A DNA stretch of 58,046 nt from Candidatus Poribacteria bacterium. GTDB lineage: Bacteria; Poribacteria; WGA-4E; PCPOR2b. Under the pieces are notes generated by a model. The model saw only the letters and a list, made by a program, of their open reading frames with translations, did not search any database and was not told the DNA's origin. The position numbers and the translations under genes are program-made. Each line of letters starts with the position of its first letter. Position 1 is the first letter of the stretch. This document shows, in pieces, positions 1 to 56,711 of the stretch. The stretch is taken from positions 1 through 58,046 of the forward strand of contig JAJECO010000093.1 of NCBI GenBank assembly GCA_022822005.1, given 5' to 3'.

Positions 1-377
1 TGCGGGCAGCATATACCTTCGAACAGAATACCGACCACCATCGAAAGCGACCAAAACTGTCCTCAAAGTGAAACGAGAAAACAACGGGGTCATGGGTTTA
101 TGGTGAACTTTAGAATTACTTATACACTTTCGATACACAACCAACCCCCTAAATCCCCCTTGTCAGGGGGACTTGGAAAACTCAGGGGGACTTCATGAGA
201 CTTCGATAAGGGGGCCTATTGGTGAACGTCTACATATTTATCTTGTTCACCATAGTAAAGACGAGTTCATTGGTTCAAGAGTTCATTAGTACATTAATGA
301 ACCAACAAAATGGACCAAGGGCGGAAACAACATCCTCACCAACTATCAACAAAGGTTATTAAGTATGGAGGGGGCTC
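1..377. other. left-edge gene-free stretch with repeats
   Basis: No gene is assigned here. Two plus-strand frames are open from the left edge, ending at TGA 69-71 and TGA 104-106. Either could be the 3' end of a gene cut by the window, but neither tail is recognisable. The rest holds the inverted-repeat element at 99-254 and, at about 261-302, degenerate 8-base units of the TTGGTTCA type. A strong GGAGG-type ribosome binding site at about 367-374 serves the next gene. Confidence 0.5.
99..254. repeat. MITE-like element with TATGGTGAA terminal inverted repeats
   Basis: The element starts TATGGTGAA (99-107) and ends with its exact complement TTCACCATA (246-254). It carries a C-rich/G-rich palindrome (CCCCCTAAATCCCCC ... 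AGGGGGACTTG) in the middle. A close relative with nearly the same outer 40 bases and the same inner end lies at 39238-39406. Others with different interiors lie at 22110-22333, 24608-24708, 47164-47353 and 55664-55800. No coding capacity is seen, so if mobile it would depend on an enzyme encoded elsewhere. Confidence 0.7.
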
Positions 378-3218: not shown

Positions 3219-3266
3219 TTGGTATATTGGTACATTGGTACATTAGTTCATTGGTTCATTAGCCAC
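3219..3266. repeat. degenerate 8-bp tandem repeat (TTRGTWCA)
   Basis: Six head-to-tail 8-base units directly follow the hisF stop: TTGGTATA, TTGGTACA, TTGGTACA, TTAGTTCA, TTGGTTCA, TTAGCCAC. Similar short arrays occur at about 261-302, 5120-5155, 10567-10585, 22790-22820, 39404-39440, 55575-55595 and 56672-56711. Eight is not a multiple of three, so the arrays are open in all frames only by chance. Confidence 0.75.
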
Positions 3267-3277
3267 CATTAACAGGC

Positions 3278-3391
3278 AACCCCCTAAATCCCGCTCCCGA
3301 TAAAGCGGGATGTACCACTTGTCAGGGGGACCTGATGCGTAACTCCCAATTAAAAACAACCCCCTAAATCCCCCTTGTCAGGGGGACTTGA
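3278..3391. repeat. two C-rich/G-rich palindromes, the first carrying an inserted hairpin
   Basis: The copy at 3358-3391 is a plain CCCCCTAAATCCCCC ... AGGGGGACTT palindrome. The copy at 3278-3330 has the same outer sequence but is interrupted after AAATCCC by 25 bases (3293-3317, GCTCCCGATAAAGCGGGA plus TGTACCA), after which CTTGTCAGGGGGA resumes. The plain form recurs at many places, including about 144-180, 8070-8104, 22153-22186, 25110-25143, 28514-28547, 33466-33500 and 55708-55741. Confidence 0.75.
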
Positions 3392-5031: not shown

Positions 5032-5894
5032 CGGATACCTTTTATAATTAACCTTTGGTGCCAGTTAGTGAGAAAGTCGTTTCTACATTGTTCAAGTCGC
5101 TTTGGATCCCGATTGATTGGGGAATTCATTGGTTCATTAGTTGGTTGGTTCATTCTTCTTGCGTGCCTCCCTTCGGATACACATGTCGCCCCTCTGGGGC
5201 TTTAGGATATTTGTTTATCCGTGTACTATAAACATGTCGCCCCTCCGGGGCTAAATGAACCGATAAACCAATGATTTTCACGCATCACGTTATTAACAGC
5301 TGTAAACTAGCACCCGGTCAGATAAATGCTACGGGTCCTGCTCGTTGTGGATTCACAAAACCACACCACCGCCGCAAGTCGGGCTTGGATATGGCTATCC
5401 AAGCTGAGCAGGGCGTGGTTTGTCATATAAATTATGATAAGCACCTTCATTGCGATGTCCGGTGCGGTTACAAACCGCACGTACCGGGCCTGGAGAACAT
5501 CAAGAATTACCGATTTATGTTCTGAAGCCTTATACAGTTTGTGCTACATTTTTCTGACAATGTACTAGGGCTATTCAGTTTTAGGCTTATTACGCATTTT
5601 GTTTGAAAAATCGGAGTCGAGAAGTCGCTCTTAGAGCGACGTGTCGGGATTGGGAAATCCCTCCTACAGAAAAACTAGGGTCGGGATTGGAAAATCCCTC
5701 CCCGATAAATCCCCCGATAGGATCGGGGCAGGCCCGATGAATCGGGACTCCGACAAGCCGAGAGCAGGCAGGCGGGATGCAAGCACCTACAGAAAAACTA
5801 AATGACCCTAGTTCACAGCTGGTGATACACTCTCTGGTCAAAGACCAAAAGTGAAACGTGAAGCGGAAAATTGAATAGGTCGGGGGTTGCAATT
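5032..5894. other. 860-bp gene-free region packed with palindromic repeats
   Basis: No gene is supported. The region contains 8-bp repeats (about 5120-5155), a paired hairpin module (5180-5252), a hairpin at 5383-5404 (GCTTGGATA, loop, TATCCAAGC) that recurs inverted at 15951-15972, and a block at about 5455-5556 shared with 51712-51800. A further block begins at 5567 (GGGCTATTCAGTTTTAGGC) and is shared with 8176 and 35817. It runs into two hairpins, GTCGCTCT/AGAGCGAC and GGGATT/AATCCC with a CTCCTACA tail. A cluster of CCGATAAATC/GATGAATCGGG units lies at about 5700-5790. Confidence 0.7.
5180..5252. repeat. paired hairpin module (ACATGTCGCCCC type)
   Basis: Two hairpins of the form CATGTCGCCCCnnnGGGGCT are separated by about 50 bases ending in CTATAAACATG. 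The same two-hairpin layout is found at 7683-7761, 18098-18173, 35893-35968, 48665-48740 and 51412-51486. Versions with altered stems are at 18510-18580, 18784-18850 and 20903-20974. Confidence 0.75.
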
Positions 5895-7648: not shown

Positions 7649-8335
7649 AGAGATAGCCAATTTCTTCAAATTACACAAGCTGCACATGTCGCCCCTCTGG
7701 GACTTTTGGGGGTTGCTAGTGTGTCGCGTGTGCTATAAACATGCCGCCCCGCTGGGGCTAAAACGGAATCCGTGATTCATACAACTTCTCGATGCTGCCC
7801 TGCCCCGATAAAGTGAGACAAGGAGGAGACTTGATGCGTAACCCCTAAATCCCCATTATCAGGGGGGCTTAACATATAAAAGCCGTCTTTTCAGATACAA
7901 GAATGTCGATTTTGGAAAATCGACCTACAATCGGGCAATCATAAGTGCTTGCAGCCCGATTTATCGGGGGAGGTGCCCATGCAGGTTATCGGACATAACT
8001 CCCAAGTTCAGATGTTTGTAATCTATCGTGGGAGATTTTAGAACTGCTCAGACGCTACCGATGAAAAACCAACCCCCTAAATCCCCCTTGTCAGGGGGAC
8101 TTGGGAAACTGCTACTAGCTTGGGCAATTATAGTATGATAGTGAATATTTAGTCAAGAGGATAAGCAAAGGTGATAGGGCTATTCAGTTTTAGGCTTTTT
8201 ACCCGTTTTGTTTGAAAAGTCGGAGTCGGAAAGTCGCTCATAGAGCGACGTGTCGGGATTGGGAAATCCCTCCTACAGAAAAACTAAATGCCCCTACCAA
8301 GGTGAGTTATTGAGGAACATAATTCGACCTATCTT
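7649..8335. other. gene-free repeat region upstream of the DUF2283 gene
   Basis: The region holds a paired hairpin module (7683-7761), a C/G-rich palindrome (about 7840-7870), a GTCGATTTT/AAAATCGAC hairpin with a CTACA tail (about 7915-7934), another C/G-rich palindrome (8071-8104) and the shared block beginning GGGCTATTCAG (8176-8290). A strong promoter-like pair on the minus strand lies at 8127-8156. No gene is supported. Confidence 0.65.
8127..8156 (-). promoter_or_regulatory. sigma-70-like promoter with long leader
   Basis: On the minus strand, TTGACT (complement of 8151-8156) and TATAAT (complement of 8127-8132) are 18 bases apart. The start would fall near 8120. The first gene downstream is the DUF2283 gene at 7648, so the leader would be about 470 bases and include a C/G-rich palindrome and the paired hairpin module. 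It could instead drive a non-coding transcript. Confidence 0.5.
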
Positions 8336-17782: not shown

Positions 17783-17888
17783 AGACGTTATGCGGTTGAA
17801 CGCTCAACGCCCGTCGGAACGCGCAATGAATCCCCGATAAATCGGGATTAAGAAATGCGCTACTACGAACTAAAGGGCGTAAGTCCTA

Positions 17889-18704: not shown

Positions 18705-18752
18705 CACATGTCGCCCCGCCCCGATAAATCGGGATTCAAAGCAACTGGGGCT
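18705..18752. repeat. hairpin with a second hairpin inserted in its loop
   Basis: CACATGTCGCCCCG ... CTGGGGCT is interrupted in the loop by 26 bases (18719-18744), CCCCGATAAATCGGGA followed by TTCAAAGCAA. The same arrangement, with loop bases changed to ACGAGT, lies at 23557-23604 (insert 23571-23596). Confidence 0.75.
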
Positions 18753-19251
18753 TTAAGACTTGGATGGGACATCCTCTGCGGCACACATTGCGCTCCTCCG
18801 GAGCGGGGGGACTATCGCCCTTCTATAGACATACCGCTCCTCTGGAGCGAAACGCTAAACTCTTGACGAGAGAGGGGACCTCGCCCCTACGGGAATATCA
18901 ATGACTTTTTAATAGCTGGGAAGTCGGGTTATGGTAAATTTTAGAATTACTTAGACACTCCCTATGTACAGTCAACCCCCTAAATCCCCCTTGTCAGGGG
19001 GACTTGAGGCATACCCCCCTAAATCCTGCCCCCGATACATCCCCGATGAATCGTCCGTTCCCCCGATAGATCGGGCTGAAGACACGAGACCAGGCAGGCG
19101 AGATCAGGATCGGACTGGATGCCTAACCCCCTAAATCCCACAACCCCCCTATCCCCCCTTGTCAGGGGGGAAACCATTGTCAGGGGGATTTTGTGGTGGT
19201 GCTGAAGATGACGGGCAATAAATTGCCCTACTACGAACGTCTGACAGCCCA

Positions 19252-23556: not shown

Positions 23557-23604
23557 CACATGTCGCCCCGCCCCGACGAGTCGGGATTCAAAGCAACTGG
23601 GGCT
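23557..23604. repeat. hairpin with inserted hairpin, second copy
   Basis: Outer CACATGTCGCCCCG ... CTGGGGCT is interrupted by CCCCGACGAGTCGGGA plus TTCAAAGCAA (23571-23596). It matches 18705-18752, and only the inner loop bases differ. Confidence 0.75.
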
Positions 23605-24878: not shown

Positions 24879-25173
24879 CACATAATTCCGATTTGTTAAA
24901 AACCTTCTGTATGGTACTGGACTGTTGTTTAGCTGATGGTAGATTTTGGAGTTGCTTAGCTACTCCCGGCTCAAAGGCAACCCCCTAAATCTCGCCCCCG
25001 ATAAATCCCCGATGAATCGGGACAGGCGGGATGTACCACTTGTCAGGGGAACAGCTCCTGACTCGACAGCGGGCAACCACAAGGGTTGCCCCTACAACAA
25101 TCAAGGTAACCAACCCCCTAAATCCCCCTTGTCAGGGGGACTTGGGAAGCTTCACGCGGGTCGGCGCGGTTGC
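24879..25173. repeat. repeat cluster between promoter and membrane-anchored gene
   Basis: A C/G-rich palindrome starting at 24979 has a 46-base insert (24993-25038) of CCGATAAATC/GATGAATCGGG units and ends with TGTCAGGGGA. A hairpin GGGCAACC/GGTTGCCC with a CTACA tail follows (about 25062-25090), then a plain palindrome (about 25110-25143). No gene is present. Confidence 0.65.
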
Positions 25174-28492: not shown

Positions 28493-28854
28493 TTGGATAC
28501 TTTCAACTCGAAGGCAACCCCCTAAATCCCCCTTGTCAGGGGGACTTGATACATAACCCCTGAAACCCCTTTGTCAGGGACTTCAGAAATTTCCCTAGGG
28601 TCGGAGTTATTGGTGAATGTCCATTTTGAAGTTATTTAGATACTTCTAATCCACAACCAACCCCTCCGACTGCGCCGAGAGTCTACGACCTAAATCCCGC
28701 CCCCGATAAATCCCCGATGAATCCCCGATGAATCGGGACAGGCGGGATGTACCACTTGTCAGGGGGACAGGCCCCGACTCGACAGCGGGCAACCACAAAG
28801 GTTGCCCCAACAAGAATCCAGTCAACCCCCTAAATCCCCCTTGTCAGGGGGACT
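28493..28854. repeat. repeat cluster between ureF and ureG
   Basis: Two plain C/G-rich palindromes lie at 28514-28547 and 28824-28857. A degenerate copy lies at about 28553-28585, and an elaborate copy at about 28660-28771 has CCGATAAATCC/GATGAATCGGG units inserted plus an extra insert in its left arm. A GGGCAACC/GGTTGCCC hairpin with a CAACA tail lies at about 28788-28812. ureF and ureG are normally adjacent or overlapping, so this repeat block probably came in later. Confidence 0.7.
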
Positions 28855-39219: not shown

Positions 39220-39237
39220 AGATTTATCCTTTCTTAT

Positions 39238-39406
39238 TATGGTGAATTCTATAATTACTTATACACTTTCGATACACAACCAACCCCCTAAATCCCCAAC
39301 CCCCCTAGCCCCCCTTGTCAGGGGGGAAAATTGGCAGGGGGACTTGATAAGGCTTCGATAAGAGGCACTATTGGTGAACGTCTACATATTTATATCGTGC
39401 ACCATA
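39238..39406. repeat. TIR element, close relative of 99-254
   Basis: It starts TATGGTGAATTCTATAATTA and ends TGCACCATA (one mismatch). The interior shares TTACTTATACACTTTCGATA and the GGTGAACGTCTACATATTTA segments with 99-254. Its palindrome (39282-39343) contains a nested second palindrome. It sits directly upstream of the dehydrogenase gene start. Confidence 0.7.
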
Positions 39407-39477
39407 GTTCATTGGTTCATTTGGTCATTAGTTCATTAATGTGCCAGTGAGTCGATGCACTCTTGAAACCCTTTTGG

Positions 39478-53468: not shown

Positions 53469-53603
53469 AACCCCCTAAATCCCGCCCCCGATAAATCCCC
53501 CGATAGGATCGGGGCAGGCCCGATGAATCCCCGATGAATCGGGACAGGCGGGACTCCGACAAGCCGAGAGCAGGCAGGCGGAATGTACCCCTTGTTAGGG
53601 GGA
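53469..53603. repeat. multiply nested palindrome
   Basis: The outer C/G-rich palindrome (AACCCCCTAAATCCC ... CCCCTTGTTAGGGGGA) is interrupted by CCGATAAATC/GATGAATCGGG units. Those are further interrupted by a GATAGGATC unit and a CTCCGACAAGCCGAGAGCA unit. The whole is 135 bases and shows at least three levels of insertion. A GGCACACGGAGTGTGCC hairpin with a CTACTACT tail lies just beyond at 53623-53650. Confidence 0.7.
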
Positions 53604-55554: not shown

Positions 55555-55663
55555 GATTGAGACCTATTTATAAAGTTCATTGGTTCATTGGCTCTGGGTC
55601 ATTCAACGAGTAATTTACGTTATCGTTAGCTGTTCAAGAAACACCGCAAAGTAAACGCTGTAT

Positions 55664-55800
55664 TATAGTAGACTTTAGAATTACTTGGACACTCCAAAGG
55701 TACAGCCAACCCCCTAAATCCCCCTTGTCAGGGGGACTTGGGGCACTGCACGAAGGTTGGAGTACTGGTAAATGGCTACTTATTTTTCTAATTCACCATA
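55664..55800. repeat. TIR element with C/G-rich palindrome
   Basis: It starts TATAGTAGACTTTAGAATTA and ends CTAATTCACCATA, with a plain C/G-rich palindrome at about 55708-55741. It is 137 bases long and lies just past the stop of the DUF6807 gene, in the gap before moxR. Confidence 0.7.
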
Positions 55801-55813
55801 ATTCGGCGATTTG

Positions 55814-56671
55814 TTACCAACGTGGTGGCGTTTCAACGAACTGGTTGTAGTAATCCCCAACCTTTGCTTCAGTAGCATCCCCTTCGTGGATGAGAATGCG
55901 AAACCGCTGCGTCAAGCGTTCACCGCGCGCAAGTTGATACTTGTCCAGCAGGGTAAAGTTCGTTAGAAACGTGCCGTAATTCCGGGTAAAAAAAGCCGAT
56001 GGCGGATTTGATGGGTGGTTCATCAGTGTGACACCGACTGTTTTACCGGCAACTATTCCACTATAGTCTGTCCAATCGGCGGATTGCCGCATCGTCTCTT
56101 CTTCGTTGCGTTGACCATTGGCGTTAAGGATTGTTCCGCCATCTTCCACATCGATCGTATCGGCAACACGCACACCGAGGAAGGCGTGATTGTCTTGTCC
56201 AAATGTCAGATCCGTGTCGCTGGCAATCAGCGTGCTTGTCAGGTCAATGATATGGGCAGCCTCACCAAGAATGACCGTGAAGTTGCGTTCCTCATCCACC
56301 ATGCGGACACCCGCCTTCGTTATCCATCCGTTATGCGTCATGAGGTGAATACTGGTTTCATTAACCTCATGTTGACTCTTTTCCAGTACGATGTCACCGA
56401 GGTCTGATCGGGTCGGGTTATTGTCGTGGAAGAAGTTAATTCCGTTCACGTCCGCATGACCGATAAAAATCGATTTGTGATGATTAAATCGGTAGGCGCA
56501 GGTAGCTGTTACTTCGCGTCCGCTCGGAGAATACACAGGATAAAAATCGGGCCGCGATTTGTACATATCGCCGTATTGAGTATGCCCCGTATTGTAGGCG
56601 AGACAAAATGCGTCCGCGTTATAGAATTTGAAACGCAATTCTTCTTCGATAATCCTTGGAATAACAGTCAT
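55814..56671 (-). CDS. DUF6807 (PmoA-like) family protein
   Basis: A 285-residue protein that matches, from memory, the DUF6807/PmoA-related family of proteins found in planctomycete- and Poribacteria-like genomes, often near oxidoreductases. Supporting stretches are TYxHHKSIFIGHADVNGINFF-type text at about 60-80 and HLMTHNGWITKAGVRMVDEE (about 108-127). DNHAFLGVRVADTIDV (about 157-172) and VTLMNHPSNPPSAFFTRNYG (about 212-231) also fit. No membrane segments are seen. Four in-frame ATGs in an 8-bp repeat precede it; ATG 56671 at MTVIPRIIEEE is used because the longer N-terminus is only repeat DNA. Confidence 0.65.
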   Translation of the reverse strand: MTVIPRIIEEELRFKFYNADAFCLAYNTGHTQYGDMYKSRPDFYPVYSPSGREVTATCAYRFNHHKSIFIGHADVNGINFFHDNNPTRSDLGDIVLEKSQHEVNETSIHLMTHNGWITKAGVRMVDEERNFTVILGEAAHIIDLTSTLIASDTDLTFGQDNHAFLGVRVADTIDVEDGGTILNANGQRNEEETMRQSADWTDYSGIVAGKTVGVTLMNHPSNPPSAFFTRNYGTFLTNFTLLDKYQLARGERLTQRFRILIHEGDATEAKVGDYYNQFVETPPRW

Positions 56672-56711
56672 TGGTTCATCAGTACATTGGTTCATTGGTT
56701 CATTAATCAAC
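56672..56711. repeat. 8-bp tandem repeat at a gene start
   Basis: Units TTGGTTCA, TCAGTACA, TTGGTTCA, TTGGTTCA, TTAATCAA lie directly before the DUF6807 gene on the minus strand. They create extra in-frame ATG codons (MINEPMNQCTDEP) that are probably not the real start. Confidence 0.6.

Follow-up and report, generated by a model that had tools for sequence, protein, structure and literature searches.

The means by which REP hairpins spread have long been in question, and to our knowledge the transposition of a single REP has never been caught in the act. TnpA-REP enzymes (RAYTs) act on folded single-stranded REPs, and those of group 3 tolerate changes to the GTAG tag (PMC8266576). REP dimers lie inside palindromes in A. 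variabilis (GTAG-15), T. roseum (GTAG-23), and H. neapolitanus (CGTC-1) (PMC3733652). Palindromes inserted within palindromes are known from Volvox organelle DNA (PMC2670323), and the insertion sequences IS1397, IS621, and ISPpu9/10 target REP sequences (PMC1525189). The literature that we searched, with partial coverage, held no report of 20- to 26-nt hairpins inserting recursively in bacteria and none on repeats of Poribacteria.

Here, we analyzed a stretch of 58,046 nt (the window), which is one complete contig (C6) of the 6.0-Mb, 97-contig genome of a Candidatus Poribacteria bacterium (G000). Tiny hairpins have been inserted exactly and recurrently into other hairpins of this genome (Table 1). 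Unless given otherwise, counts cover ~1.9 Mb of the genome, taken in stretches. The comparison set held six genomes of the genus and 34 relatives outside it; the sister genome G003 is 91.5% identical to G000, and G002 is ~84% from both. Among named genomes, one of the repeat units had exact matches only in Candidatus Poribacteria MAGs.

The initial annotation had reported hairpins inside the loops of other hairpins, and every site that it named reads as described. Allowing up to 2 mismatches, the window contains 25 copies of the host arm CCCCCTAAATCCC, where 1.28 would be expected. The two 26-base units each interrupt GCCCCG^CTGGGGC at exactly this bond and are distinguished from each other by three inner bases, and the C/G-type inserts announced within 19125-19188 and 39282-39343 are both present. 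What it overlooked is the frame of these structures: most C/G hairpins are the centers of MITEs.

Table 1 Host hairpins, inserts, and MITEs located in the window
Position	Strand	Feature	Size	Context
98..254	+	MITE1 copy, TIR TTATGGTGAA...TTCACCATA		A hairpin at center
3293..3317	+	U3-type insert GCTCCCGATAAAGCGGGATGTACCA	25 nt	In A hairpin 3280-3329; G003 ortholog also filled
5700..5785	+	Nested U4 insert, tail ATGCAAGCA		3' of GGGATTGGAAAATCCC hairpin; empty copy directly upstream (about 5644-5676)
7684..7715	+	Empty B-type hairpin		G003 ortholog filled with CCCCGATAAATCGGGATTCCAAA
7842..7867	+	Empty A hairpin		G003 ortholog holds nested U3 insert
17832..17855	+	U1 unit CCCCGATAAATCGGGATTAAGAAA	24 nt	Loop of REP5 hairpin (GCGCAATGAAT^TGCGCTACTAC)
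18719..18744	+	U2 unit CCCCGATAAATCGGGATTCAAAGCAA	26 nt	Loop of B hairpin (GCCCCG^CTGGGGC)
19140..19173	+	Type III insert (C/G hairpin ...CCCCCCTATCCCCCCTTGTCAGGGGGGAAA)		In A hairpin 19127-19186
23571..23596	+	U2 unit CCCCGACGAGTCGGGATTCAAAGCAA	26 nt	Loop of B hairpin (GCCCCG^CTGGGGC)
24994..25038	+	U3+V insert	45 nt	In A hairpin 24981-25050; V at 25007-25026
About 28665-28688		Second insert, TCCGACTGCGCCGAGAGTCTACGA		Same A hairpin as 28699; splits outer 5' C-run arm
28699..28754	+	U3+V insert	56 nt	In A hairpin
39298..39329	+	Type III insert AACCCCCCTAGCCCCCCTTGTCAGGGGGGAAA		In A hairpin of MITE 39237-39406
53471..53602	+	A hairpin with nested insert		Host arms CCCCCTAAATCCC and CTTGTTAGGGGG
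53484..53590	+	U3-type insert, tail ATGTACC		In A loop; CCCGATAGGATCGGGGCAGG, V, and CTCCGACAAGCCGAGAGCAGG hairpins inside
53529..53548	+	V unit CCCCGATGAATCGGGACAGG	20 nt	One of four identical window copies
55663..55801	+	Typical MITE1	139 bp	Center is an empty A hairpin

C/G and REP-like hairpins both exist in empty and filled forms. The C/G hairpins (A type, AACCCCCTAAATCCCCCTTGTCAGGGGGACTT) mostly form the center of a MITE, either MITE1 (~139 bp, TTATGGTGAA ends) or a second MITE (TAGGACTTACGCA ends). MITE1 has terminal inverted repeats TTATGGTGAA...TTCACCATAA and a TA duplication (IS630/Tc1-like). A 136-nt copy at L190 (4436-4571) in G003 is absent from the same site of contig C3 here, where a TA target is found, and MITE1 has therefore moved recently. 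At C3:42011-42171, MITE1 ends enclose a different center (GGTAGGTGCGGTTTCTAACCGCACC) with no C/G hairpin, which suggests that MITE centers are exchangeable. Degenerate 8-base-periodic TTCATTGGTTCATTAG repeats (3219-3260, 39406-39446, and 56668-56704 in the window) are intergenic and scattered through the genome.

About 68 A hairpins have the plain core CCCCCTAAATCCCCCTTGTCAGGGGG (25 to 26 nt) and ~48 are filled, carrying additional bases from AAATCC(C) to (C)TTGTCAGGGG; because this search fixes both ends, it is blind to inserts elsewhere in the hairpin. The window inserts at 3293, 24994, 28699, and 53484 lie between AAATCCC or AAATCTC and CTTGTCAGGGG (for the last, CTTGTTAGGGGG beginning at 53591, with the insert ending at 53590 or 53589, an edge ambiguous by one C). 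Genome-wide, CTTGTCAGGGGGA is present in 158 copies versus 1 for its reversed control and CCCCGATNNATCGGGAT in 101 copies versus 0. The B hairpins (CATGTCGCCCCGCTGGGGCT) comprise 109 plain and six filled copies, and all six share the exact loop bond, five with 26 nt and one with 23 nt. Host sites include GCCCCAG^CGGGGC (B), GTTGCCCG^ATTCATCGGGC (REP4), TAGCGCA^ATTCATTGCGC (REP5), GGGCAAG^ATGCCCC (REP1), CCACAAG^GGTTGCC, and CTGACAAG^G (A).

Read on the G-rich strand, the mobile unit U is T-linker-AT-CCCGATNNATCGGG-G, 23 to 26 nt long, with the linkers U1 (TTCTTAAT), U2 (TGCTTTGAAT), U3 (GGTACAT, in A hairpins), U4 (GCTTGCAT), and others besides. Unit V (CCTGTCCCGATNNATCGGGG, 20 nt) lands inside the U loop at CCCG^AT at several sites. 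The ends of the units are constant (T...GGGG). These 20- to 26-nt units have no terminal repeats, and the GTAG tag is absent from U and V (none among 13 linker types), the unit hairpin being preceded on its 5' side by T-linker-AT. U1 was found in at least five unrelated families of host hairpins, and three different units share a single insertion bond in the loop GTAGGGGCAACC^CTTGTGGTTGCC. Filled hairpins also act as hosts, giving three or more levels of nesting. Every one of the six genus genomes contains U (36 to 111 copies per genome), as do only 2 of the 34 relatives outside the genus. On the closed chromosome of G001 (OY282444), four CCCCGATNNATCGGGA hairpins follow one another at 24-nt spacing (4260868-4260955), which is a tandem or repeated insertion of the unit.

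The REP dimers of other bacteria are likewise hairpin elements within larger palindromes; they are, however, dimers and mostly lack empty targets (PMC3733652), whereas this genome has filled as well as empty hairpins, several host families, recursive nesting, and polymorphism at orthologous loci. The Volvox palindromic repeats, like mitochondrial double-hairpin elements and GC clusters, are organellar, average 50 nt, and have no known enzyme (PMC2670323), whereas the elements described here are bacterial, 20 to 26 nt long, and accompanied by candidate transposases.

An RNA-level function, such as that of terminators or mRNA ends, might maintain and lengthen hairpins, with nesting being selected stem growth. 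The elements are indeed strong hairpins that lie mostly between predicted ORFs. An Rfam search of the whole window gave no match to known RNA families, though, and the C/G hairpins are unbiased with respect to the direction of neighboring genes (53/108). Furthermore, stem growth would not put the same foreign unit into unrelated hairpins, and we regard this as the least probable of the explanations considered.

Because a pattern search favors its own pattern, 2.1 Mb were searched on both strands, without reference to hairpins, for every exact pair of X12+Y12 (empty) and X12+insert+Y12 (filled) with an insert of 14 to 89 nt. This recovered many exact insertions without target duplication, and short hairpin units dominated the output. 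Among 170 distinct site/insert combinations, 28% of insertions fell in a predicted loop and another 32% within 2 nt of one, compared to 24% and 12% for random positions in the same sequences. Insertion points are thus not scattered over stems as often as loops (60% versus 36% at or near a loop). Rejoining the flanks produced a stem of at least 7 bp for 31% of 124 unit copies, whereas mispaired flanks and a shifted junction each gave 5%.

G stands immediately before the unit in 112 of the 124 copies and A in the other 12, and CAAG precedes it in 40. The preferred site is RG^T on the G-rich strand, with CAAG commonest and the unit itself starting at the T, which indicates that sequence also sets the site, not the loop alone. 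The initial annotation placed inserts always near the apex. This holds for the inserts that it listed but not throughout: the second insert in hairpin 28660-28771 lies in the outer C-run arm, and foot insertions occur in some families (GG^CTTGGATA) and in an A hairpin at C22:46618. Since CAAG sits at the foot in the foot cases, the target would be an unpaired or fraying CAAG within a hairpin rather than the loop as such.

A non-Y1 recombinase that targets REP loops (IS110-type IS621 or IS3-type IS1397), with the units as its miniature derivatives, could also give fixed insertion sites. REP centers are known IS targets, and such elements take a fixed position in REP hairpins, sometimes at the axis of symmetry (PMC1525189). 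These elements are, however, full-length, carry transposase genes, and usually generate target duplications, whereas the units here are far smaller, at 20 to 26 nt, and have neither terminal repeats nor target duplications. We consider this origin very improbable.

At least six loci differ in filling between G000 and the sister genome G003, with orthologous flanks that are 83 to 97% identical. An A hairpin at C3:41714 carries a 44-nt insert here and is empty in G003, the locus near C4:59275 holds a type III insert here versus U3 in G003, and a REP1 loop on C58 is empty here and contains 24 nt (GTCCGAGAGGATCCCGCGACCGGG) in G003. All three genomes (G000, G003, and G002) have U at C58:215677, whereas V occurs there in G000 only. 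With G002 as the outgroup, this pattern indicates that V was gained in the G000 lineage and, judged from these sequences, that the filled form is younger than the unfilled one. No polarization was obtained at window position 7842 or at C3:41714, because these intergenic repeats are missing from the outgroups.

Filled hairpins might instead be few in origin, each having arisen once and been copied as part of a whole MITE or REP element without repeated insertion. Consistent with this, filled copies of one host family share a unit (REP4 with U1 at 8 or more loci). On a tree built from MITE1 arms, with the interior excluded, filled and empty copies are intermixed with at least 14 filled/empty changes, a pattern that could also stem from recombination between copies. 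Near-identical MITE1 sister pairs differ in filling, and AU tests reject a single-clade origin for both U3 (p 1.4e-32) and type III (p 2.9e-5), and copies of one filled founder were rejected on these tests. As one host loop also contains different units and orthologous loci differ by the insert alone, the single-origin explanation is already contradicted and has very little probability left.

The main rival to a transposase is template switching or recombination between hairpins, by which loop contents would be moved with no transposase at all. In one version, a polymerase that stalls at a hairpin switches to a second one, copies it, and then returns; in the other, gene conversion over short homology spreads filled loops among repeat copies. 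Several observations fit. C/G tracts and AAAT spacers are common to the hosts, conversion would likewise intermix filled and empty MITEs on the tree, same-unit tandem or nested repeats exist (as in G001), and the RAYT whose REP matches U is sporadic, as described below. At L157, a unit with its left half in a REP4 host and its right half in a REP5 host is a recombinant of two filled hosts, which demonstrates that recombination also reshuffles loops. In contrast, the ends of the units are fixed, all 124 copies have G or A as the flanking base, the same unit occurs in hosts without shared sequence, and V entered U at an orthologous locus with only ~12 to 20 nt of homology per side. Both versions therefore seem unlikely to us, if well short of negligible.

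A process that inserts into folded or single-stranded DNA, carried out by a RAYT or IS200/IS605-type enzyme, had been proposed from the window alone. The insertion process is borne out by the empty/filled pairs, the multi-insert loop, the polymorphism, and the MITE tree, all of which point to exact recurrent insertion at loops. With regard to the enzyme, the genome contains three intact Y1 genes, all of them RAYTs with their own hairpin family alongside (L001, L002, and L003; NF047646 scores of 125, 200, and 88 bits, cut-off 80). Across the genus, at least five families of host hairpins flank their own RAYT or IS200/IS605 transposase. REP5 lies on the flanks of the L204 RAYT (93 bits, same model and cut-off), and B hairpins stand on both sides of the IS200/IS605 TnpA in L207, L208, and L215 (the last scoring 76 bits with NF033573, cut-off 55). 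GTAG-tagged REPs adjoin L001, L002, L204, and L206, with inverted copies at L001, L204, and L206, and the hairpins adjoining L003 are untagged. Both GTAGGCGGGGCATCTTGCCCCGC at L001 and the hairpins around L003 serve as insert hosts.

The RAYT of L206 is flanked by REP4 (GTAGTTGCCCGATTTATCGGGC), and its REP is GTAGTTG-CCCGATTTATCGGGC. The stem-loop of REP4 is identical to the U core CCCGATTTATCGGG, which gives the units the appearance of REP4 hairpins that have lost GTAG and use different 5' linkers. This RAYT scores 73.7 bits against the curated cut-off of 80, contains the HxH motif and the Tyr, and has E. coli TnpA-REP (4er8, 1.6e-8) as its best solved relative. It is intact in G003 only and broken in G005, and G000 has a distant remnant at most; an L206-type RAYT may possibly have been lost after use. 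RAYTs are common inside and outside the genus, including in related families without U units. The L003 RAYT was rejected as the mover of U, as its close homologs were found in G008 and G009 and not in the other genus genomes.

Replication-strand bias was not detected for U (26/52) or V (23/40). Although 86 of 108 A hairpins fit one replication strand (p 4e-10), the independent units are contigs, of which ~10 of 14 agree, and the per-copy p was therefore set aside. Strand bias was likewise discarded as proof of single-strand insertion, given this contig-level support and the opposite direction of the B hairpins on C58, and 3-kb local skews were too noisy to guide replication direction. A hairpins of one contig share a direction (window, 18+/0-; C4, 21+/1-; C58, 6+/20-), as was seen in the window (C6), C4, C20, C25, C51, and C58. 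B hairpins are oriented independently of A (33+/4- in C58). Replication direction accounts for the orientation of A and B hairpins in part only.

We conclude that the genome carries non-autonomous hairpin elements nested within one another, that their exact and recurrent insertion is well supported, and that a Y1/RAYT-type mechanism is the best explanation of the insertions, with a probability of roughly 0.58. The hosts are the REPs (GTAG-tagged, belonging to several RAYTs), IS200/IS605-type hairpins (B), and C/G hairpins in MITE centers (A). U and V, with the stem-loop CCCGATNNATCGGG, enter these hosts exactly and without target duplication, 3' of G or A on the G-rich strand and in most cases at the host apex. 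The enzyme may be a RAYT-type Y1/HUH transposase, the likeliest candidate having GTAGTTG-CCCGATTTATCGGGC as its own REP. It would excise the unit as a folded single strand, which would then be joined into the exposed loop, or another unpaired CAAG, of a second hairpin. Counting against a RAYT as the mover are the units without GTAG, the sporadic L206 RAYT, intact only in G003, the lack of U and V strand bias, and the foot and arm inserts. A further proposal, which we put forward tentatively and hold with some doubt, is that the 20- to 26-nt single hairpins are self-propagating, using a REP-type transposase without GTAG and landing in folded hairpins, including their own.

Like the REP/RAYT system (REPtrons, TnpA-REP), the Poribacteria elements include high-copy intergenic hairpins, GTAG-tagged hosts that flank HUH tyrosine transposase genes, and a U core equal to the stem-loop of one putative RAYT's REP, with enzymes of a kind that acts on folded single strands. 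Unlike REPs, U and V carry no GTAG and occur singly, not as REPIN pairs, and they enter the loops of other REPs as well as their own. The IS200/IS605 family has in common with them the B hairpins flanking its TnpA, the absence of target duplication, and perhaps insertion 3' of a preferred short sequence, although CAAG precedes only 40 of the 124 units. In contrast to that family, the units are an order of magnitude shorter, consist of one hairpin instead of two ends, and are unbiased, whereas IS200/IS605 insertions are biased to one replication strand (lagging-strand template).

If the units do propagate as single hairpins, no smaller transposable units would be known, and they would provide direct natural evidence for the transposition of single REP-like hairpins. 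Sister genomes differ by exact 20- to 45-nt hairpins at hairpin loops, and one gain is polarized by an outgroup. The candidate enzymes with matching hairpins would make the spread of REPs testable in vitro with short oligonucleotides. The findings also caution that loop-rich repeat arrays in such genomes arise by insertion, not by random palindrome drift.
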